A stretch of DNA of 64,000 nucleotides, from the NCBI GenBank assembly GCA_030695945.1, contig JAUYOG010000019.1, positions 1 to 64,000 of the forward strand, given 5' to 3'. Under the pieces are notes generated by a model that was given only the letters and a program-made list of their open reading frames with translations, ran no database searches and was not told where the DNA came from. The DNA comes from Ramlibacter sp. Its GTDB lineage: Bacteria > Pseudomonadota > Gammaproteobacteria > Burkholderiales > Burkholderiaceae_C. Of this stretch, positions 105 through 10,246 are shown in pieces. How positions within the stretch are numbered: the stretch's first letter is position 1; each line of letters starts with the position of its first letter. A program made the position numbers and the translations under genes.

Positions 105-2312
105 CTAGGCAACCGCCTCGGCGCGCTTGAGCAGTTCTTCCAGACCCGGCTCGTTGGGGTTGCGCGGCTTGCCCGGGTGGATCACGGCCACCTGGCAACT
201 CTCCGCGGCTTCGACCAGCTGTGCGTACGTGCCGGCGTTGATGTCGGCGATGTAGGCCTGCTGGTTGGCGTTGTACGCGAACATCTTGTTGTTGATCTGC
301 GTGCACTCGTTGCACGTGGAGCAGCGCTCTGTCTCGATATATGCCTCGTCGGGATTGCGCTCGGGCTCCTCCATCACTTCGGCGACGGCAGGCGCGGCGG
401 ACGACGGCGCGGTAGTTGCCGCAGCCGGCTGCGCCGCGGCGGGCGCGCTCACCGGGGGGGCGGCTTCCGCCTCCTTGCGCATGCGCTCTTCCCAGGCCTT
501 CTGCTCGCGGGCCAGCAGCTGCTCGGCATGCGAGTTGTGGATGCCGCCGAGCTCCTGCAGGCTGTGCCACATCTCGCGGCAACGGCTGGCCTGGCGGATG
601 AGGCTTTGGGTGACCAGCACCTTCTGCAGCCGGTTCTGGCCGTCCACCATCAGCACGCTGGGCACCTTGTCGGGCAGGCCCTTGCGCTCCTTGGCCAGCG
701 TCTCGTCGACGGCGATCATGCTGCCGTTCCACTTCTCGCGCGGCACGCGCGCGAGCTGGCCGGCATAGCGGCTGTCCGCGGCGAGGAAATCGACCACGGT
801 GAAGGCGAGGTCCTGCGTCACGCCCTGGTGCTGCTCGTCCTCGTAGGCGAAGCCCTTGACCGGCCAGTCCAGGTCCACCTGCGAGTTGGCCTGCAGGCAG
901 AAGCGCGCGGCCCAGTTGGCGCCGGCGGAGGGGTCGTAGGTGAAGGCCGGGAACGCGCGGGACTCCATCGCTGCGGCGGCCATCAGGTACGGCGGCAGGC
1001 CGGCGGCTTTCGCGTTCGCGCCCGAGTACACGCTGAACAACGCGGGCCCGCGGTAGGTCACGCCCTTGTGCAGGCGATCGCGGAACTGGAACAGGTTGGA
1101 CGCGCTCGACTGCAGCACGTACACCTCGTTCAGGCCCATGGCCAGGCTGGCGAGCTGGCGGCTGCGCATGCCCGGAGCCTGCATGCCCGGCTCCGAGGTG
1201 GAATCGGTCAGGTCGTCCACCTGCAGCAGCACCTTGATCGGCAGGCCCGACGACAGGATTTCCATCAGGCGGGTGTTCTCTTGTGCGTCCAGCCCGCCGT
1301 CGGCGATGCAGACCAGGTAATCCGGGAACACGGCCAATTCGGCGGCATCGAGCCCGGCCGCGCCGTAGGCCTCGAACACGGCGTCGTGCCGCTCGGGGCT
1401 GTACTGGCCGTCGATCTCCAGGTCGGCGATCACCAGCGCGCGCGCCAGTTCCACCAGCTTCGGCAGGCGTTCGCGATAGGCCTTGAGCGCGGCGCCGCAA
1501 CTGTCGAATACGAAGCCGTAGCCCTGCACCGGCGCATCGGCTGCGCCGTCGGTGTAGAAACGCTGCGACTTGAGCACGCGCAGCAGGTCGGTGATTCGGC
1601 GCTTGCGCGCGGCGGGCATGGTCTCGCGGGGCTGGGATTTCGTCAGCAGCCGGGACATCGCGTCGAAGTCCATGGCGCTCGCGAACGCCGGGCCCATCGT
1701 GGCTTGCAGGCGGTCCGGCGCCACGCCGCGGGCGGACTTCTCGACATCGGCTTGCAGGATTGCGGACAGTTTCAGCACGAGGCGCTGCAGGCGCTGGCGG
1801 AACTGTGCCGACTTCGCTGCCTGCGCGGCCTCCCAGACGTGACGCAACAGCCGCGGCGGCAGTGCTGCATCGCAATCGGCCAGCACGCCATCGACTTTCA
1901 CGGCCGCGCGCAGGCGCCGTTGGCTTTCATCGAACGTGGCATCGCCCTGCGCCGAAATGCGCGCTGCCGCGCTCTCCCATAGCGCTGACAGGGTGCCGGC
2001 AGTGCCCGCGGCGACAAGCGTGCGAATCTCCTGCTCCAGCCGCAGGCCATGCTTGCGAATGCGCTCGGCATCGGCGCCCTGCGCCGCCTTCTCGAGCGCC
2101 TTGTCGACGAGGCCGGAGAGCGACTCGACGTTCGCCCCCGCGGCGGCCTTGCCCACGAGCACCACCGGGAAGTCGTAGCGCAGGGGGGTCAGGTCTTCAT
2201 AGCCGGCGAAGAGCGCCGGGCGCAACTCCAGCCCGTCCACGGCGTCCAGGTACTCCGCCGGCCGCCGGCCGGTCAGGAAAAATGCAACATGTGCTTGGGT
2301 GTCGGCTTCCAT
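105..2312 (-). CDS. Large protein with C-terminal ferredoxin-like cysteine motif, last gene of the 2-oxoacid oxidoreductase operon
   Basis: 735 residues. Only the C-terminus is recognisable: Cys664, Cys667 and Cys670 form CxxCxxC and Cys706 follows, the spacing expected for one iron-sulfur cluster of ferredoxin type. The roughly 600 residues before it are soluble-looking, with no signal peptide or membrane segment, and match no family I can name. An Ala/Pro-rich linker (about residues 610-650) precedes the cysteine domain. The ATG has AGGTTGAA upstream and lies 36 bases after the KorB-like gene, so it is probably the distal gene of the operon. Inference: electron acceptor or docking partner for the KorAB-like enzyme, with the N-terminal domain perhaps linking it to the Nfn-like flavoproteins. 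The operon position supports a redox role; the exact function is unknown. Confidence 0.75.
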   Translation of the reverse strand: MEADTQAHVAFFLTGRRPAEYLDAVDGLELRPALFAGYEDLTPLRYDFPVVLVGKAAAGANVESLSGLVDKALEKAAQGADAERIRKHGLRLEQEIRTLVAAGTAGTLSALWESAAARISAQGDATFDESQRRLRAAVKVDGVLADCDAALPPRLLRHVWEAAQAAKSAQFRQRLQRLVLKLSAILQADVEKSARGVAPDRLQATMGPAFASAMDFDAMSRLLTKSQPRETMPAARKRRITDLLRVLKSQRFYTDGAADAPVQGYGFVFDSCGAALKAYRERLPKLVELARALVIADLEIDGQYSPERHDAVFEAYGAAGLDAAELAVFPDYLVCIADGGLDAQENTRLMEILSSGLPIKVLLQVDDLTDSTSEPGMQAPGMRSRQLASLAMGLNEVYVLQSSASNLFQFRDRLHKGVTYRGPALFSVYSGANAKAAGLPPYLMAAAAMESRAFPAFTYDPSAGANWAARFCLQANSQVDLDWPVKGFAYEDEQHQGVTQDLAFTVVDFLAADSRYAGQLARVPREKWNGSMIAVDETLAKERKGLPDKVPSVLMVDGQNRLQKVLVTQSLIRQASRCREMWHSLQELGGIHNSHAEQLLAREQKAWEERMRKEAEAAPPVSAPAAAQPAAATTAPSSAAPAVAEVMEEPERNPDEAYIETERCSTCNECTQINNKMFAYNANQQAYIADINAGTYAQLVEAAESCQVAVIHPGKPRNPNEPGLEELLKRAEAVA

Positions 2313-2348
2313 CGTTCAACCTGTGTTGTGTTGGCTGGGCATGCGCGG

Positions 2349-3335
2349 TCAGGCCGCCTGCCGGCTCTCGCCCTGGGGCCAGACGGTGTACTTGTCCAGC
2401 TCGGTGTTGAGGCCGCTGCGGGTCCATTCGGGCGTCACGATCCGGTCGACGCCCCGCGTCTCCTCGTAGCAGGGCACGGAGGGGTTGCGGTAGAGGATGC
2501 CCACGGGGATGTCGCCCTGCGTGCTCGCGATCTCGCGGGCGCGGTTGAGGTTCATCGGGTCGTGCTCGACCTGGTTCTTGTAGATCTTCGCGATGCCGGG
2601 GCTCGGCTGCAGGCCGTCGGCGTGGTGCAGCACCTGGATGCGGTTCGGGTCCTGCATCCACGGGTCGTACAGGTCGGGCAGCCATTCGGGGCAGCGCTGC
2701 ACGATGCGCACGAACGAGAGGCCCTTGTGGTGGTAGGCCGCCTTGACGATGTCGAACAGCAGCTCGGGGATCCAGTCCACCGCCTGCGCGACGAAGGAGA
2801 CGTTCTGCACGCCCAGCGTCACGGACAGCGGGTTCAGCGCCTCCAGGTAGCTGCCCTTGGGCGTGGTGTTGCTGCGCGTGCCCAGCGGGGACGTCGGCGA
2901 GGCCTGCTTCTTCGTCAGCCCGTAGATCTGGTTGTCGTGCAGGAACACCGTGAGGTTCATGTTGTAGCGGATCGCGTGGATCCAGTGCGCCGCGCCGATC
3001 GAGCAGCAGTCGCCGTCGCCGGTGTTGACGAACACCGTGAGGTCCGGGCGCGACATCTTCACGCCCTCGGCCACCGGCAGCGCGCGGCCGTGGATGCCGT
3101 GGAAGCCGTAGGTCTTCATGTAGTGCGGGAAGCGGCTGGAGCAGCCGATGCCCGAGACGAACACCGTCTTCTCCGGGCGCAGCGCCTCGTCGCGGCAAAG
3201 CCGCTGCACCGCGGCCAGGATCGCGTTGTCGCCGCAACCCGTGCACCAGCGCGGCACGCCGCTTTGATAGTCCTCCAGCGAGAAGTGCTCATCGCACATC
3301 TGCAGCAGGCATTCCGTGGGCGACATCATGTCCAT
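2349..3335 (-). CDS. korB: 2-oxoacid:ferredoxin oxidoreductase, TPP-binding beta subunit
   Basis: 328 residues, usual length for the beta subunit. It carries the WCTGCG cysteine motif near residue 30 and the TPP/Mg motif GDGDCC (about residue 95) followed by the HDN element. With the alpha/gamma subunit encoded just upstream it should oxidatively decarboxylate a 2-oxo acid to an acyl-CoA, passing electrons to ferredoxin. The ATG at 3335 lies 2 bases after the korA stop, with GAGGGG inside the end of korA as ribosome binding site, so the two are translated together. The substrate (2-oxoglutarate, pyruvate or an arylpyruvate) cannot be read from the sequence; 2-oxoglutarate is favoured by resemblance to Kor enzymes of aromatic-degrading betaproteobacteria, which is recall, not a search. 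Confidence 0.88.
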   Translation of the reverse strand: MDMMSPTECLLQMCDEHFSLEDYQSGVPRWCTGCGDNAILAAVQRLCRDEALRPEKTVFVSGIGCSSRFPHYMKTYGFHGIHGRALPVAEGVKMSRPDLTVFVNTGDGDCCSIGAAHWIHAIRYNMNLTVFLHDNQIYGLTKKQASPTSPLGTRSNTTPKGSYLEALNPLSVTLGVQNVSFVAQAVDWIPELLFDIVKAAYHHKGLSFVRIVQRCPEWLPDLYDPWMQDPNRIQVLHHADGLQPSPGIAKIYKNQVEHDPMNLNRAREIASTQGDIPVGILYRNPSVPCYEETRGVDRIVTPEWTRSGLNTELDKYTVWPQGESRQAA

Positions 3336-3337
3336 GG

Positions 3338-5260
3338 CTATGCCCCTCTTTCCAGTTTCTTGAGTTTGTCGGCCACCACCTTGCGGATGGTGGAAGGCTT
3401 GATCGGCTGGCCCGCGACTTCGCTGAAGCAGTCGATGTCGACGAGGTAGCGCGAGCGCAGCATCGTCGCCAGCGCCGTGTAGCGGCGGTTGGTTTCGTCG
3501 ATCAGCTTGTCCTCGGGCTTGTCGCTCCAGTTGCTTTCGATGCACAGCACCTGCTTGAAGCCCGCCATGGCTTCCTTGATGCCGGGCGCCATGGGCTGCA
3601 GGAACTGCAGGTGAAGCGAAGAGACCTTGTGGCCCTGGTTGCGCAGGCCGATCACGGCTTCCTCGATCGCGCCCTTGGTGCTGCCCCAGCCGATGACCAG
3701 CAGGTCGCCTTCCGGGTCGCCGAAGATCGTCGGCGGCTTCAAGGTCTTCTGGAAAGCCGCCAGCTTCAGGCTGCGCGCGCGCAGCGCCTGCTCGTTGGTG
3801 AAGGCATCGTAGGCCACGTGGCTGTCGCGGTCGTGCGCGAGGCCGGTCACGGTGTGCATGCCGCCGGGCTGGCCGGGCTTGAAGCGGCGCGACAGGCCCG
3901 TGGTCTCGTCCCATTCGTAGGGCTTGGCGCCCTCTGGCACCGGGCTCTGGTCCACCGGGGGCGCCATCCAGCTCTCGTCGAACTTCGGCCGGGGGAAGGG
4001 CTGCTGCGAGGTGGCAAGGCCGGCATCGGTGAGGATGACCACGACCATGTTGAAGGTCTCGGCGATCCGGCGTGCGGTGATCACCGAATAGAAGCACTCC
4101 TCGATGGTGCCGGGCGCCATCACGATCTTGGGGGCGTCGCCGTGGCTGCCGAAGATGGCCGTCATCAGGTCACCCTGCTCCATCTTGGTCGGCTGGCCGG
4201 TGCTGGGGCCGCCACGCTGCACGTTCACGACGACCAGCGGGATCTCGGCCATCACCGCGAGGCCGATGGCCTCCTGCTTGAGCGAGTAGCCCGGTCCGGA
4301 GGTGATGGTGATCGCGCACTTGCCGGCGTACGAGGCGCCGACGGCAAACGCGCAGGCCGCGATCTCGTCCTCGGCCTGGTGCACGATGCCGCCGACCTTC
4401 TCGAAGACCTCGGCCAGGTAGTGCGAAGCGGAGGTGGCCGGCGTGATCGGGTACATCGCGCAGATTTCCATGCCCGAGGCGAGCGTGCCCAGCGCGAGCG
4501 CGGTGTTGCCGTTGACCACGATCTGCGGCTCGGTGGAGCGGGTCGCCGGGATGGCGTAGCAGAAGTCGAGGTTCTCGCGCGCCCACTCGGCCCCGCATTC
4601 GAGCAGCCTGATGTTGGAGTCGACGATGCTGCGGTCCTTCTTGCCGAAGGTCTGGATGATCTGGTCCGAGGCCAGTTTCAGGTCCAGGCTGAGGATCTGG
4701 CAGAACATGCCCAGCGCGAACATGTTCTTGCCGCGCTTCGGGTCGGCCACCAGCTTGCGGCATTCCTCCTCCATCGGGACTTCGTACACCTTGTAGCCCG
4801 CGGCGATGAGGCGCGCATAGGTCTCGACGTAGGAGGCGCAGATCGACGCGTCCTTGTGGGTGCGCCACATGCTCTCCAGCAGGATGATGCAGCCGGGCTT
4901 GAGCTCGTTGGCGCGCACGCGGCCGAGCAGCACCTGCTCGTTGAAGCTCACGACCAGGTCGGTCTTGTCGCCGCCGTTGGTGATCGGTCCCGAGCCGATG
5001 CGGATGCGGTTGCCGCTGGCGCCGGCCACGCTGCGCGCCGGCGGACGGATCTCGGCGGGGATGATCTCCGTCGTCCAGATGCCGTTGCCCATCTGCGCCG
5101 CGATCGAACCGAGCGACTGCCCGCATTTCTGCGCGCCCTCGCCCGAGTCGCTGATGATCTCGACGATGTGCTCCTTCAGCCGCGTCGGCGCCTTCGCGCC
5201 GGATGCGCCTCTGGGCTTCGCGGCCTCGCCGGCCGCCTTGTTCAGGATCGTTGCGTCCAT
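3338..5260 (-). CDS. korA: 2-oxoacid:ferredoxin oxidoreductase, fused gamma-alpha subunit
   Basis: 640 residues. Residues of about 30-210 correspond to the gamma domain (SGEGAQKCG near the start) and the rest to the alpha pyrimidine-binding domain (TPATSASHYL, EDEIAACAFAVGASYAG, TSGPGYSLKQE), a known gamma-alpha fusion arrangement. It pairs with the KorB-type subunit to make the CoA-dependent 2-oxo acid decarboxylase. An in-frame ATG exists at 5290, but it would overlap the preceding gene; the ATG at 5260 leaves a 19-base gap and suits the family. There is only a weak GGA ribosome site, so translation may depend on coupling to the upstream gene. No iron-sulfur ferredoxin domain is fused here, so an external electron carrier is needed. 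Confidence 0.9.
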   Translation of the reverse strand: MDATILNKAAGEAAKPRGASGAKAPTRLKEHIVEIISDSGEGAQKCGQSLGSIAAQMGNGIWTTEIIPAEIRPPARSVAGASGNRIRIGSGPITNGGDKTDLVVSFNEQVLLGRVRANELKPGCIILLESMWRTHKDASICASYVETYARLIAAGYKVYEVPMEEECRKLVADPKRGKNMFALGMFCQILSLDLKLASDQIIQTFGKKDRSIVDSNIRLLECGAEWARENLDFCYAIPATRSTEPQIVVNGNTALALGTLASGMEICAMYPITPATSASHYLAEVFEKVGGIVHQAEDEIAACAFAVGASYAGKCAITITSGPGYSLKQEAIGLAVMAEIPLVVVNVQRGGPSTGQPTKMEQGDLMTAIFGSHGDAPKIVMAPGTIEECFYSVITARRIAETFNMVVVILTDAGLATSQQPFPRPKFDESWMAPPVDQSPVPEGAKPYEWDETTGLSRRFKPGQPGGMHTVTGLAHDRDSHVAYDAFTNEQALRARSLKLAAFQKTLKPPTIFGDPEGDLLVIGWGSTKGAIEEAVIGLRNQGHKVSSLHLQFLQPMAPGIKEAMAGFKQVLCIESNWSDKPEDKLIDETNRRYTALATMLRSRYLVDIDCFSEVAGQPIKPSTIRKVVADKLKKLERGA

Positions 5261-5279
5261 GTTTGTTTTCCGTTTTGCT

Positions 5280-6776
5280 TTAGGCCACACGCACGCGCGC
5301 GAAATTGCGCTCGCTGGCGTCGATGCCGAAGAACGTGCCCGCCCCCGCTTCGTGATAACCGTGCGACGTGTCGCGGATGCCCAGGTAGGCCTTCATGCTC
5401 CGGGCCGCCTTGCGCCCCGCGCCCATGGCCTCGATCACCGTCGCGGCGCCCGTGACGATGTCGCCGCCCGCGAACACGCCGGCCACCGAAGTCGCGAGGC
5501 TGTCGTTGGTGGCGATGTAGCCCCACTTGTTGAGCTTCAGCTTGGACGTCTGGCCCATGATCGGATTGGCGTTGGTGCCGATCGCATAGACGATCAGGTC
5601 CGCCTCGAAGTCGAACTCGCTGCCGGCCACCGGCACGGGGCGCCTGCGGCCCGATTCGTCCGGCTCGCCCAGCTCCATCTTCACGCAGCGCATGCCGCGC
5701 ACCGACCCCGTTCCGTCGCCCAGCACCTCCACCGGGTTGGTGAGCCAATGAAACTCCACGCCCTCTTGCTGCGCGTGGTGCACTTCCTCGGCGCGCGCCG
5801 GCGCTTCCGTCCTTGAGCGGCGGTAGATGCAATACACCTTCTCGGCGCCCAGGCGCAGCGAGACGCGCATCGCGTCCATCGCGGTGTTGCCGGCACCGAC
5901 CACGGCCACGCGCTTGCCGATCGGCAGCGGCGTGTCGTAGGCCGGGAAGTCGCGCGCCCGCATCAGGTTGCAGCGCGTCAGCAGCTCGTTCGCGGACAGC
6001 ACCCCGTTGAGCGAGTCACCCGGGATGTTGAGCATGGTCGGGTAGCCCGCGCCGACGCCGACGAACACGGCGTCGTAGCCCATCTCGTCGAGCATCTGCT
6101 CCACGGTGAAGAGACGGCCGACCAGCGTGTTGCACTCGAACTTGACGCCGAGCGTGCGCAGCTTGTCGATCTCCGCGTCGATCACGGTGTTGGGCAGGCG
6201 GAAGTCGGGGATGCCGTACTTCAGCACGCCACCGGGCTCATGGAAAGCCTCGTACACGGTGACGTCGCAACCCGCTTTCGCCATGTCGGCCGCGCAGGCC
6301 ATGCCGGCGGGGCCGGAGCCCACCACGCCGACCTTGAAGCGCGTCGGCTGGATGTAGGGGATGTTGATCCAGCCTTCACGGATCGCCGTGTCGCCCACGA
6401 AGCGCTCGAGCCGGCCGATCGCCACGGCCTCCAGGGAATCACCCACGGTGCACACGCCCTCGCACTGGTTCTCCTGCGGGCACACCCGGCCGCAGATCGA
6501 CGGCAGCAGGTTGGTATCGGTCAGGATGTCGTAGGCGCCGCGCAGGTTGCGCTCGGTGATCTTCTGGATGAAGCCGGGGATGTTGATGCCCACTGGGCAG
6601 CCGGAGATGCACGGCTCGTCCGGGCACATCAGGCAGCGGTCGGCCTCGCGCGAGGCCTCTTCCACGTTGTAGCCGCAGGCGACTTCCTCGAAGTTCTTCG
6701 CCCGCGCCTGCGCATCCTGCTCGCGCATGGGCGTGCGCTCCTGCGGGATGGTGCGTATCGTCTTCTTCTTGGCCAT
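5280..6776 (-). CDS. NfnB/GltD-like NADPH-dependent flavoprotein with two N-terminal Fe-S motifs
   Basis: 498 residues, same family as glutamate synthase small subunit and the large subunit of NfnAB/SudAB. N-terminal cysteine clusters at about residues 48-60 (CLMCPDEPCISGCP) and 95-110 (CGRVCPQENQCEGVC), then a dinucleotide fold VGSGPAG for FAD and a second VGAGNTA for NAD(P)H with the RRS motif that contacts the NADPH phosphate. A GTG at 6785 is in frame, but the ATG at 6776 has GAGGTGA six bases before it and is the better start. There is no gltB next to it. Its partner is the SudB/NfnA-like gene 30 bases upstream, so it is more likely a ferredoxin-NADP+ oxidoreductase than a glutamate synthase subunit. 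Confidence 0.85.
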   Translation of the reverse strand: MAKKKTIRTIPQERTPMREQDAQARAKNFEEVACGYNVEEASREADRCLMCPDEPCISGCPVGINIPGFIQKITERNLRGAYDILTDTNLLPSICGRVCPQENQCEGVCTVGDSLEAVAIGRLERFVGDTAIREGWINIPYIQPTRFKVGVVGSGPAGMACAADMAKAGCDVTVYEAFHEPGGVLKYGIPDFRLPNTVIDAEIDKLRTLGVKFECNTLVGRLFTVEQMLDEMGYDAVFVGVGAGYPTMLNIPGDSLNGVLSANELLTRCNLMRARDFPAYDTPLPIGKRVAVVGAGNTAMDAMRVSLRLGAEKVYCIYRRSRTEAPARAEEVHHAQQEGVEFHWLTNPVEVLGDGTGSVRGMRCVKMELGEPDESGRRRPVPVAGSEFDFEADLIVYAIGTNANPIMGQTSKLKLNKWGYIATNDSLATSVAGVFAGGDIVTGAATVIEAMGAGRKAARSMKAYLGIRDTSHGYHEAGAGTFFGIDASERNFARVRVA

Positions 6777-6806
6777 TGCTGTCACCTCGGGATCGAATTC
6801 GAATAC

Positions 6807-7736
6807 TTAGCCACCGAGTACCTCCTCGGCGGGGTCGGGCAGGTCCAGGCCGTCGTCGCCGCGCGGCTTCGGCGCGTCGGTGGCCGAGGGCTGCGTCATG
6901 CGGCAATGCTCCGACCAGCGCTCGTGCGCCTTCTTCTCGTCGGGCGTGTAGCGGCGCAGCCGCGACATGAGGTCGTCGAAATCCACCAGGTGGCCGTCGA
7001 AGTCGGGGCCGTCGACGCAGGCGAACTTCACCGTGTCGCCGACCTTCACGCGGCAGCCGCCGCACATGCCGGTGCCGTCCACCATGATCGGGTTGACGCT
7101 GACCATCGTCTTGATCTTGCGTGCGCGCGTGGCGTCGGCGCAGGCCTTCATCATCACGGGCGGGCCGATTGCGACGACCTCGTCGATGTCGTCGTGCTTC
7201 GCCAACGCCTGCGCGATTCCGTCGGTGATCAGGCCCTTGATGCCGACGGACCCGTCATTGGTGCAGATGATGAGCTCGTCGCAGGCCTCGCGGAACTTCT
7301 CGTCCCAGAACACGAGGTCCTTGTTGCGGAAGCCCAGCACGCCGATCACGTACGCACCAGCTTCCTTGAAGCCGCGTGCCTGCGGGAACACGGGCGCGAC
7401 GCCGAGGCCGCCGCCCACGCACATGACCTTCTTGGCGTGGCTGATCGGGCTGGGGATGCCCATGGGCCCGACCATGCCGAACAGCTTCGTGCCGACACGG
7501 CACTCCTGCCTCATCTGCTGCGTGGTCTTGCCGACGGCCTGGATGACGAGGGTGATGGTGCCGCGTTCGCGGTTGTAGTCGGCGATGGTCAGGGGTATTC
7601 GTTCACCGTGCGGATTGAGCATGACGATGACGAATTGCCCGGGTTTCGCGGCTTTGGCCATCTGCGGATGGCGCACCTCGAGCAAATAGGTGACGTCGGA
7701 GAAATCCTCGCGCGCCACGATCTCGAATTCGGACAT
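6807..7736 (-). CDS. NfnA/SudB-like ferredoxin-NAD(P)+ reductase subunit with 2Fe-2S motif
   Basis: 309 residues. It has a flavin-binding beta barrel (about 1-95), an NAD(P) domain with VGGGLGVAPVFP near residue 110, and the C-terminal 2Fe-2S motif GTGMCGGCRV plus FACVDGPDFDG near residue 240, characteristic of NfnA/SudB (dihydroorotate dehydrogenase electron-transfer type). First gene of the five-gene redox operon. Known relatives bifurcate electrons between NAD(H), NADP(H) and ferredoxin; whether bifurcation occurs here is inference. A tail of about 45 residues after the core (Pro/Asp rich) is longer than in typical NfnA. Confidence 0.85.
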   Translation of the reverse strand: MSEFEIVAREDFSDVTYLLEVRHPQMAKAAKPGQFVIVMLNPHGERIPLTIADYNRERGTITLVIQAVGKTTQQMRQECRVGTKLFGMVGPMGIPSPISHAKKVMCVGGGLGVAPVFPQARGFKEAGAYVIGVLGFRNKDLVFWDEKFREACDELIICTNDGSVGIKGLITDGIAQALAKHDDIDEVVAIGPPVMMKACADATRARKIKTMVSVNPIMVDGTGMCGGCRVKVGDTVKFACVDGPDFDGHLVDFDDLMSRLRRYTPDEKKAHERWSEHCRMTQPSATDAPKPRGDDGLDLPDPAEEVLGG

Positions 7737-7937: not shown

Positions 7938-10106
7938 CTACAGCTTGATGTCGAGGCTGTTGCGCAGCGCGGTTTGCGCGACGGCGTCGAGCGCGCCGTC
8001 GACGACGGCCTGGCCGGAGATCATGCGCAGCGTACCTGCCTGCAGCATCTTGTCGAGCAGGCGCCGCGTCATGGAGTGCGTCTTGCCCGCGGCACTGGCG
8101 AACATGAAGAGCGTGCCGTGCGGGCTGGCCCAGGTGACCTGCAAGCGCGCCCAGCCGCCGTCGAGCAGCATCTCCACCCATGCGCCCGGCGGCAGTCCGG
8201 CGTCGGTCACGACATGCGCGAGGCCGCCGGGCCGCGTGTCGCCCGCGCCAGGCTGCGTCTCCTGGAACAACGGCTTGGGCACGATCGACTGGTGCGTCTG
8301 CATGAAACCCGATTCCTGCGCCTCCGTCGGGCCGAGCCAGGGGCCCGGCCCGGTGTCTTCGTCGGGACCGAGCATCGCCTCGAGTTCCTCGCGCGTCATG
8401 CTGGTCGACAGCGGCACCGGCTTGCCGGGCTGCCCGGCGGCCTTCAGCGCCTGCTGGTGTGCCGCGTTCACATGGTCGACGAAGCGCTGCGTGGCGGGCG
8501 CCGGGTAGTCGATCGTGGCGAGGCCGTGGCGCAACGCACCGAGCAATCCGGGGGCGAGCCGGGCGAGCCGCGCCGCGTTGCCCGCAGCCACGCGCGGCTG
8601 CGTGCTCCACACCAGGTCGGCGACCACGGAGGCGTAGCCGCCCGGGTCGGCCGAGCCCAGTGCATCGCCGAGCCGGGCCTGGGCCATCACCTGCGCCCAC
8701 GGCCCGGCGATGAACGAAATGATCTCTCGGGCCGCGCCCGCGACATCCGGACGTGCACGCATTTCCTTGGCGATCTTCTCGGCCAGCAGGTTGCGCTGCT
8801 CGGCCTGCAGCAGCGCGCGAACGGCCTTCTCGCGGTGATGGCGGTCGCGCTGCTGCACCTCGCCCCATGCCTCCTCCAGTGAACCGAGCGCGAAGTCGAA
8901 CGGCTCGGCGCCTTCGATGCGCGTGGACACAAGCACCTCGACGGCCTGGTTGAGGGGTTCGATGAAGGCGGCAAAACCGGGCGCGTCCACGGCCTGCCAG
9001 GCCAGGCTGCGCTGCGTCATCTGCTCCAGCAGGCGCCGCGCGGGGTGCTTGCGGTCGCTGAAGAAACGCGGGTCGCCGAACGCGAGGCGCTCCAGCGCCG
9101 GCAGCAGCTCGCGCACCAGCTGCTGCACCGGCTGCAGCAGGCGCGGGTCGGACGCGATGTTCCCGACCATCAGCGCGACCACTTCCTGGCCCAGTGCCCG
9201 GGCCACGGCGCGCGGACCCTGCTGCGTGGCATCGCTGCCCTGCAGGCGCTGCATCACCTGGTCAACCTGCTTCATCTCGTGCAGGGCTTCGAGGGCCGCG
9301 GGCATCGTCATCGAGAAGTCGGGGTCGGTGGCGTCCTCCTGGGCCTTGGCGGGCTGGCCTTCCAGGGCGCCGGACAACAGGCGGCGCAGCTCCTTCACGT
9401 TCAGCAACGCGCTCGCGCGCGACGCGCCCGTGTCCCGGGACGGGTACTCGCTCTCGGGCGTGGGGATGGCGTTGTAGCCGGCGCCGACGACACCTTGCGA
9501 ACGCAGCACCACGCACAGCTCCTGGTAGACGCGTGCCAGTTCCGGGGCCAGCGCCTCGCCCAGGTGCTGCATCCAGCGGCTGCGCACGGCGGCGGGCACG
9601 GGGCTCTGCAGCGCCACGCTGCGCAGGCTGCGCACGTACACCTCGGGACGCAGCGGGTTGCGTTCGGCCTGCACGCTGCGCAGGCCCTGCACCGCGCACA
9701 CCAGCGCGTTGAGCTCGGTCAGGTCGGCCTCGACCTCGGCGAGCACGACCTGTTGCAGGCGCAGCAAGTCGACGCTCTCCTGCATCTGCTCGTCGCCCAT
9801 GAGTTCCAGCGAATCGAAACTGAGCGCGGCCTTGCGCGTGTCGCCCGAGATCGCCTGGGCGAACTCGCCCAGCAGCGCCTGCGGGTAAGCCTCGCACAGC
9901 GCGCCCTCGTGTTTCATGAGCGTGCGGGCGGCGTCCGACAGCAGCTTTCGCTCGTGCTCGTCGGAGATCCGGGCGCCCCGCTGGGGCATCGACAGGGCCG
10001 CCCTCCGCACCAGCCGCTGCATGAGAGTCCGCCCCTGCGCCGCCGCCTCCTTCATGACGGTACGGTACAGGGCCTGATACGAGGTGTTGTGGGGCGCCGC
10101 GGACAT
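7938..10106 (-). CDS. DUF1631 family protein (first paralogue)
   Basis: 722 residues, cytoplasmic, largely helical. The C-terminal block (WVEM, TWASPHGTLFMF, HSMTRRLLDKM) is shared with the protein encoded at 12640-14850, and the two align in outline along their length. DUF1631 proteins are common in beta- and gammaproteobacteria, and I know of no firm biochemical role. The ATG at 10106 was chosen although its AGGAG lies 14 bases away; the upstream in-frame ATG at 10178 would run into the divergent promoter region. It is divergent to the YidB-like gene, which starts 140 bases away. Confidence 0.8.
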   Translation of the reverse strand: MSAAPHNTSYQALYRTVMKEAAAQGRTLMQRLVRRAALSMPQRGARISDEHERKLLSDAARTLMKHEGALCEAYPQALLGEFAQAISGDTRKAALSFDSLELMGDEQMQESVDLLRLQQVVLAEVEADLTELNALVCAVQGLRSVQAERNPLRPEVYVRSLRSVALQSPVPAAVRSRWMQHLGEALAPELARVYQELCVVLRSQGVVGAGYNAIPTPESEYPSRDTGASRASALLNVKELRRLLSGALEGQPAKAQEDATDPDFSMTMPAALEALHEMKQVDQVMQRLQGSDATQQGPRAVARALGQEVVALMVGNIASDPRLLQPVQQLVRELLPALERLAFGDPRFFSDRKHPARRLLEQMTQRSLAWQAVDAPGFAAFIEPLNQAVEVLVSTRIEGAEPFDFALGSLEEAWGEVQQRDRHHREKAVRALLQAEQRNLLAEKIAKEMRARPDVAGAAREIISFIAGPWAQVMAQARLGDALGSADPGGYASVVADLVWSTQPRVAAGNAARLARLAPGLLGALRHGLATIDYPAPATQRFVDHVNAAHQQALKAAGQPGKPVPLSTSMTREELEAMLGPDEDTGPGPWLGPTEAQESGFMQTHQSIVPKPLFQETQPGAGDTRPGGLAHVVTDAGLPPGAWVEMLLDGGWARLQVTWASPHGTLFMFASAAGKTHSMTRRLLDKMLQAGTLRMISGQAVVDGALDAVAQTALRNSLDIKL

Positions 10107-10246
10107 GGGGTGGTATGGGTCTCCTGCCGCACTGGAGCATAGGCGATGCAGGCCGTCAACCCCGGCAGGCCAAGGCATCGGCCTACAAGGGGCTGCGACA
10201 GGCCCAGTTTAAGCTGGCCCGAACGTCACGAATCAGGAGCATTCCC

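Follow-up and report, generated by a model that had tools for sequence, protein, structure and literature searches.

The NADP+-specific KGOR of Azoarcus evansii reportedly has three subunits, KorAB and a GltD/NfnB-like NADP-reducing flavoprotein, and is said to act in anaerobic aromatic metabolism. Known Nfn enzymes work with soluble ferredoxin. Here we analysed a five-gene operon of a Ramlibacter sp. (assembly GCA_030695945.1) that carries NfnA-like, NfnB-like, KorA and KorB genes together with the gene of a 735-residue protein, named X735 in this study. It lies at the beginning of a 64,000-nucleotide stretch, called the window below, which comprises bases 1-64000 of contig C1 (JAUYOG010000019.1) of a draft genome (3.75 Mb, 73 contigs, 79% complete). 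The operon joins known kinds of enzymes through a pseudoenzyme subunit, and no description of this operon, of a dead PFOR subunit or of tethered-ferredoxin channelling for Kor or Nfn was found in the open-access texts searched, taken without supplements. An earlier note, made from the letters of the window, had not recognised the combination as a described system; this applies to NfnA and X735, which are additions, and not to a KGOR with a GltD-like subunit, said to be known from A. evansii.

With a probability of about 0.5, we propose that the operon encodes a soluble KorAB-X735-NfnAB electron-transfer assembly which turns 2-oxoglutarate electrons into NADPH. The anatomy of the operon and of X735 is well supported, while the electron path, the complex and its direction are what we infer.

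Gene order and conservation of the operon

As the earlier note had described, the five open reading frames form a compact group on one strand, the minus strand, in the order NfnA-like (6807-7736, 309 amino acids), NfnB-like (5280-6785, 501 amino acids), KorA (3338-5290, 650 amino acids as called from GTG), KorB (2349-3335, 328 amino acids) and X735 (105-2312, 735 amino acids), the last with a PFOR-derived pseudo-thiamine pyrophosphate (TPP) domain and a C-terminal ferredoxin. The gaps between them were 21, -11, 2 and 36 bases. The gap of -11 between NfnB and KorA changed to +19 when KorA was begun at an internal ATG (Met11), and the ATG at 5260 is the probable true start; gaps of 2-36 bases, as first given for the operon, hold with this start and not with the GTG start, which produces the overlap.

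A search baited with X735 gave 38 loci, and 42 X735 loci were examined for gene order (L048, L050, L051 and L052 were left out of this count, the X protein of L053 is too short, and L016 and L149 have no upstream sequence). KorB adjoined X735 in all 36 loci with at least 400 bases upstream (35 distinct genomes). The earlier note had suggested searching for the 735-residue protein beside korAB and nfnAB-like genes, and all four partners were present in the same order in 25/25 testable loci, those with at least 5.7 kb upstream (24 distinct genomes; L017 and L054 are the same, genome G005), so that the five-gene set is beyond chance. The loci that bear a name belong to metagenome-assembled genomes (MAGs) from Burkholderiales, Sulfuritalea, Acidobacteria, Pyrinomonadaceae and Bacteroidetes. 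All five genes were also present in a Rhodocyclaceae MAG, where NfnA is incomplete, and the sequence of a Kiloniellaceae MAG stops before NfnA. Relatives at 94-99% identity were in a Ramlibacter MAG (G003, loci L016 and L053).

Among 61 relatives searched with KorA and NfnA as bait, with the window's own genome included, all 6 X735-positive genomes had NfnA of the close clade (at least 73% identity) and none of the other 55 did, the best NfnA there reaching 53% identity. Close-clade KorA was likewise confined to these six, and the best KorA of the other 55 had 35% identity, apart from a short fragment at a contig end of G001 with 43%. The operon as a conserved unit is thus not refuted by either condition that the earlier note had named, a flavoprotein pair regularly found with gltB or alone, or a lack of conservation of the five genes together in relatives. 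Pairwise distances among the operon genes correlated at 0.84-0.96 in 20 genomes, compared with 0.50-0.59 against the SucA control, and the correlation with SucA was 0.02-0.22 in a 16-genome run which leaves out L041, L043, L044 and L091. The partial correlation of X735 with KorA given SucA was 0.885 (permutation p 0.0005, the smallest possible with 2000 permutations), and of the four partners NfnB tracked the divergence of X735 most closely (partial r 0.948). The operon genes thus share one history which differs from that of SucA, indicating transfer as a unit. These results showed that the five-gene operon is real and conserved, and was apparently transferred as a unit. In an Acidobacteria MAG (L031, MELE01000139), the operon is near the betaproteobacterial copies and SucA is distant, which may reflect a recent transfer or a misbinned contig.

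X735 combines a degenerate PFOR-like domain with a tethered ferredoxin

The sole Pfam match of X735 was Fer4_13 at its C terminus (23.9 bits, just below the cut-off of 24.5), and there were zero NCBIfam matches; in the relatives L091 and L100, Fer4_13 was above cut-off. A profile of 28 X735 proteins was then compared by hhalign with the C-terminal half of fused PFORs of ~1650 amino acids, and the two aligned over 597 columns with a probability of 100 and an E value of 6.3e-76. The underlying alignment, A1, comprises the window and 27 of the 38 loci; it omits L016 (near-identical), L033, L034, L038, L045 and L047 (cut off or differently framed), L048, L050, L051 and L052 (PFOR or fragments) and L053 (22 residues only). 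Residues 134-735 of X735 covered the TPP domain, C-terminal extension, linker and ferredoxin of PFOR. The fused PFORs L058 (1651-residue frame) and L050 (1690-residue frame) carry POR_N, PFOR_II, POR, Fer4, TPP and Fer4_13 domains by Pfam, both scoring under the TIGR02176 cut-off. When an AlphaFold2 (AF2) model of X735 was searched against PDB, PFOR chains took ranks 1-16, with a best E value of 2.9e-5.

Four regions were distinguished, all on the minus strand: a mostly helical N-terminal region unaligned to PFOR (residues 1-133, 1914-2312), a degenerate PFOR TPP domain lacking GDG and NTGGQ (residues 134-611, 480-1913), an Ala/Pro-rich linker with 52% Ala plus Pro that is predicted to be disordered (residues 613-656, 345-476), and a single [4Fe-4S] ferredoxin with C664, C667, C670 and C706 (residues 657-735, 108-344). 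The protein had been called a giant ferredoxin-domain protein and a private electron carrier; the last ~80 residues are indeed a ferredoxin, and ~480 residues are instead a degenerate PFOR TPP domain.

In the A3 alignment, which is without L096, GDG and NTGGQ were in register in both PFORs and in none of the 13 stand-alone X members. NTGG was found in 0/28 of the A1 proteins, and three GDG..N matches (L039, L040 and L098) fell out of register. At most one of the four proximal [4Fe-4S] cysteines (CxxC, GC-SVW, CPPEHG) was kept in any of the 13 stand-alone members; a counterpart of the second CxxC cysteine exists in the window (C147), L091 and L092, and C147 was present in 25/28 proteins of A1. 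The ferredoxin motif CxxCxxC...C with its four cysteines, on the other hand, was present in 28/28, preceded by a linker of 31-47 residues with a mean Ala plus Pro content of 49%, compared with 18% in the body, and linker residues 618-651 had a pLDDT below 50 in the AF2 model. Nineteen of the 36 columns invariant in A3 lay within the last 79 residues, that is, in the ferredoxin, and dN/dS was 0.09-0.25 in three comparisons, showing purifying selection on X735. The X protein of L091 (8152-11067 on the plus strand, contig C65 of G273) has three tandem C-terminal ferredoxins with similar Ala/Pro-rich linkers, and the five-gene operon around it is otherwise normal. Taken together, X735 looks like a PFOR TPP domain that has lost its catalytic function.

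Two other origins were rejected. A long ferredoxin or an unknown fold was ruled out by the profile and the fold, which both indicate a PFOR TPP domain, and a duplicated KorB was ruled out by the lack of profile similarity, the PFOR-KorB control being itself weak (66.7% probability).

KorAB and NfnAB resemble functional enzymes of their classes

KorA is a fused gamma-alpha subunit with YPITPA and QRGGPST; it scored 514.5 bits against TIGR03710 (cut-off 482.75) and matched the M. marinus OGOR 6n2n_A with E 3.1e-76 in a PDB sequence search. KorB was above cut-off for TPP_enzyme_C and has a GDG motif and four cluster cysteines, C31, C34, C65 and C215, which were invariant in 8/8 aligned KorB proteins. 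The class motifs are present in KorAB, namely YPITP and the substrate Arg in alpha and GDG-N with the four cluster cysteines in beta, and no ferredoxin domain was found in it. This suggested that KorAB is a two-subunit 2-oxoacid:ferredoxin oxidoreductase with a TPP-competent beta subunit, its activity being predicted from these motifs. At the substrate positions of StOFOR, Leu (D468a), Thr (T349a), Leu (L123b) and Arg (K49b) were found. Leu, Thr and Leu at the first three are those of the 2-oxoglutarate-specific H. thermophilus Kor, according to PMC5020499, and Arg at the K49b position is common to the M. marinus and H. pylori OGOR. 2-Oxoglutarate is the likeliest, not a proven, substrate.

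NfnA was above cut-off for NF004862/PRK06222 in the Pfam/NCBIfam scan, and has the DHODB Fe-S domain, an FAD/NAD domain, the [2Fe-2S] motif DGTGMCGGCR-x10-CV and the flavin strand ERIPLT. NfnB was above cut-off for TIGR01316, and has Fer4_20 and two [4Fe-4S] motifs with FAD and NADPH Rossmann domains. In PDB sequence searches, NfnA matched P. furiosus NfnI (5jca_S, E 1.5e-90) and NfnB matched T. maritima 4ylf_B (E 1.4e-170). The Nfn motifs given in the available parts of PMC6405883 are DGTGMCGxCRx10CV and ERxPxT for NfnA, and RCx2Cx4Cx3CPV and GRVCPQExQCx3Cx13Gx2ER for NfnB. Both NfnA motifs were found by the motif check; the first [4Fe-4S] motif of NfnB was exact, and the second fitted only with x11 replacing x13. 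According to the same passages of PMC6405883, Nfn function is not readable from sequence alone. NfnA and NfnB appear to be ordinary Nfn subunits, both full length, for which bifurcation is at most predicted.

The genome of the window also holds a divergent NfnB-KorA-KorB set (L061, contig C8 of G000, 27-33% identity) shaped like a three-subunit NADP-linked KGOR. Such a three-gene set adjoined the five-gene operon in several relatives, and KorA matches of an identity similar to the L061 set were present in many.

A second, Nfn-free context of X proteins behind KorB

Profile matches, either X-family proteins or PFORs, were found in 34/369 genomes of the class, 18/297 in the phylum of the Pyrinomonadaceae locus and 7/296 in the phylum of a Bacteroidetes locus, some of them being ordinary PFORs. 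Besides the Nfn-containing loci described above (type I), a second context (type II) was observed, in which stand-alone X relatives with frames of ~740-1350 amino acids followed KorB in 19/19 fetched loci; KorA was present in 18 of these, the remaining one being cut, and Nfn genes were seen in none of the 19. The type II order was KorA-KorB-X-RnfB-like-PFOR-like (L092-L101, as clusters, annotated in L100), and SucCD, RnfC/D, FrdA-like and NuoF-like proteins lay near some loci, with sucCD near 4/10 (annotated in L100, the others by similarity). The motif test, which covered L092-L101 and not L150-L158, showed the PFOR-like protein to be without YPITP and without GDG/NTGG in 10/10, so it looks like a second catalytically dead enzyme. 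The X family thus accompanies a KorAB clade, and is combined with Nfn in type I and with different carriers of electrons in type II. In one type II locus (L096, contig C1 of G094), KorA matched in three separate pieces and the X match met an internal stop, which may reflect decay of this copy or errors in sequencing.

A probable facultative anaerobe as host

The earlier note had held that the other genes look aerobic. Specific models found bcrCBAD and a cyclohexadienoyl-CoA hydratase gene in the same genome (L102, 761-6360 on the plus strand, contig C5 of G000), that is, a class-I benzoyl-CoA reductase and a dienoyl-CoA hydratase, beside a partly sequenced classical 2-oxoglutarate dehydrogenase E1 (a partial match at a contig end). 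As the genome carries bcrCBAD, the aerobic label is not warranted, and the host is probably a facultative anaerobe. A separate KorAB lies a few kilobases from bcr, its KorA being 33% identical to that of the operon, which makes the five-gene operon an extra. A PorAB/Pad-like cluster (L060) is also close to the bcr region.

The carrier set comprised 37 genomes and omits L045, PFOR-only loci and the later-found G562, G686, G692 and G748. PF06050, a benzoyl-CoA reductase subunit family which is broader than this enzyme and also matched by E. coli, was found in 29/37 carriers, often as tandem pairs; specific models, run for G000, G273 and G005 only, found bzdN, O and Q in G273 and bcrA in G005. 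Among the relatives, PF06050 was present in 5/6 X735-positive and 9/55 X735-negative genomes, three of the nine being weak (Fisher p 0.0017, uncorrected for kinship), and within the genus in 4/5 and 8/32, respectively (p 0.03). 2-Oxoglutarate dehydrogenase E1 was matched in 37/37 carriers, above cut-off in 36, and Kor as a substitute for a missing 2-oxoglutarate dehydrogenase was thereby ruled out. A link with nitrogen fixation was also ruled out, with nifH above cut-off in 3/37 carriers only.

Surroundings of the operon

X735 sits at a contig end, and since the contig starts at base 1, the window alone cannot show that the operon ends there. Antisense frames aside (the choice of frames sometimes took these), no flanking family occurred in more than 5/38 loci, so a fixed wider neighbourhood was rejected and the conserved unit probably ends with X735. 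A gene for a DUF1631 protein (7938-10178) lies on the same minus strand, 201 bases upstream of NfnA. Promoter and terminator scans of the operon gave signals at chance level, and a plasmid search gave two matches, both distant and partial.

Discussion

In the assembly that we propose, KorAB would oxidise 2-oxoglutarate with CoA and place low-potential electrons on the [4Fe-4S] cluster of KorB, for which the motifs are present. The dead TPP domain of X735, with its lost motifs, may serve as a docking scaffold, and the ferredoxin on its Ala/Pro-rich linker, predicted to be flexible, could pick up electrons at KorB and deliver them to the [4Fe-4S] clusters of NfnB, analogous to the lipoyl arm of lipoamide-dependent 2-oxo acid dehydrogenases. 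NfnAB would then make NADPH, confurcating with NADH if it behaves like known Nfn, and the net reaction would be 2-oxoglutarate + CoA + NADH + 2 NADP+ -> succinyl-CoA + CO2 + NAD+ + 2 NADPH. Facultative anaerobes that degrade aromatics via benzoyl-CoA and have surplus 2-oxoglutarate electrons could use it, and NADPH from such electrons is, in our view, the role that fits the physiology best.

A reverse run seems unlikely, in which NfnAB would bifurcate NADPH electrons to NAD+ and, via the tethered ferredoxin, to KorAB, and succinyl-CoA would be carboxylated to 2-oxoglutarate for CO2 fixation or anaplerosis. Kor and Nfn reactions are reversible, and the FrdA-like, SucCD, Rnf-like and PFOR-like genes of some type II relatives recall clusters of the tricarboxylic acid (TCA) cycle or its reductive form; however, the type II PFOR-like protein is without active-site motifs, so that this protein cannot act as a pyruvate synthase there. 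RuBisCO-family matches were found in 24/37 carriers but not in the window's own genome, which is 79% complete. Gammaproteobacterial reductive TCA clusters use a four-subunit KorABCD, according to PMC6315080, which leaves open the direction of dimeric KorAB.

Ranking behind the reverse run, and also improbable, is that the operon chiefly feeds reduced ferredoxin to class-I benzoyl-CoA reductase from 2-oxoglutarate and NADPH. PMC9973337 reports that R. palustris depends on the Nfn-like protein AadN to degrade aromatics anaerobically, that KorAB serves benzoyl-CoA reductase in T. aromatica, and that an Nfn-like protein and KorAB are alternative electron suppliers to this enzyme in R. palustris strains. 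The bcrCBAD genes and the PF06050 matches of most carriers are consistent with such a supply, whereas the separate KorAB near bcr, the nine X735-negative relatives which have PF06050 without the operon, and the eight carriers without PF06050 argue against it.

Least likely, X735 would belong to KorAB alone, as a subunit for structure, assembly or electron output, with KorAB and NfnAB co-regulated and linked by soluble ferredoxin, as X following KorB in the Nfn-free type II loci might suggest, but NfnAB is in the operon in all 25 testable type I loci, NfnB is the partner that best tracks X735, and more than half of the A3-invariant columns (19/36) are in the ferredoxin, so that electron transfer, not structure alone, seems to be selected.

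Several observations count against the proposed KorAB-X735-NfnAB assembly. KorB scored 240.8 bits against TIGR02177, below the cut-off of 261.9, and the substrate call is not clean because of the Arg at the K49b position, since K49R shifted the preference of StOFOR1 to pyruvate (PMC5020499). The AF2 model of X735 was of moderate quality (pLDDT 73.8, pTM 0.64), and its fold matches to PFOR had TM-scores of 0.16-0.18 and root-mean-square deviations of 10-14 A. The X735 profile alone found no PFOR in the PDB sequence set; the A3 profile did, but A3 includes two PFORs. X735 and KorB profiles showed no similarity (E 0.58). The primary tie of X is to KorAB, since it follows KorB even where Nfn genes were not seen. 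The benzoyl-CoA link is not universal, as 8/37 carriers have no PF06050 match, and the TCA cycle does not need the operon for its closure, as all carriers match E1.

If the assembly exists as proposed, low-potential electrons would be channelled by a tethered ferredoxin, and facultative anaerobes would gain a low-potential route from 2-oxoglutarate in which reduced ferredoxin is not set free. More tentatively, and with less confidence than for the assembly itself, the X735 family may represent pseudoenzyme subunits of a new class, in which an inactive PFOR TPP domain serves as scaffold for one to three ferredoxins on swinging arms. Such a subunit would channel KorAB electrons straight to NfnAB in type I, or to a relay of Rnf-like and pseudo-PFOR proteins in type II, with no free ferredoxin pool. 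Nfn genes are reported in Koribacter, a bacterium called aerobic in the available part of PMC6405883, and the operon could bear on them if it occurs there. In Endoriftia, dimeric korAB and a 'PFOR-like' gene fall in expression together (PMC11636981), and the operon family could bear on this gene of the tubeworm symbionts.

The dimeric OGOR korAB and 'PFOR-like' gene of these symbionts possibly form a type II cluster, likened here by description and not by sequence, and the passages of PMC11636981 and PMC6315080 consulted name no pseudoenzyme or third subunit. The two-subunit M. marinus OGOR (6N2N/6N2O) and S. tokodaii StOFOR (5B46-5B48) likewise consist of a fused gamma-alpha and a beta subunit, and StOFOR, like KorAB here, is without an intramolecular ferredoxin domain (PMC5020499, in the part available); what differs is the separate third gene product X735, which could supply the missing domain. 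Compared with fused PFOR with a C-terminal ferredoxin, X735 has the same domain order from the TPP domain onward, but is a separate protein that has lost the TPP/Mg motifs and most ligands of the proximal cluster. Known NfnAB (T. maritima 4YLF and P. furiosus NfnI 5JCA) has the same published cofactor motifs and full-length subunits, whereas here NfnAB is part of one fixed operon with Kor and a tethered ferredoxin, and has x11 instead of x13 spacing. The closest known system is the A. evansii KGOR, in which KorAB is said to be linked to a GltD/NfnB-like flavoprotein that passes 2-oxoglutarate electrons to NADP+; compared with its reported three subunits, the operon has five conserved genes, with NfnA and X735 added.

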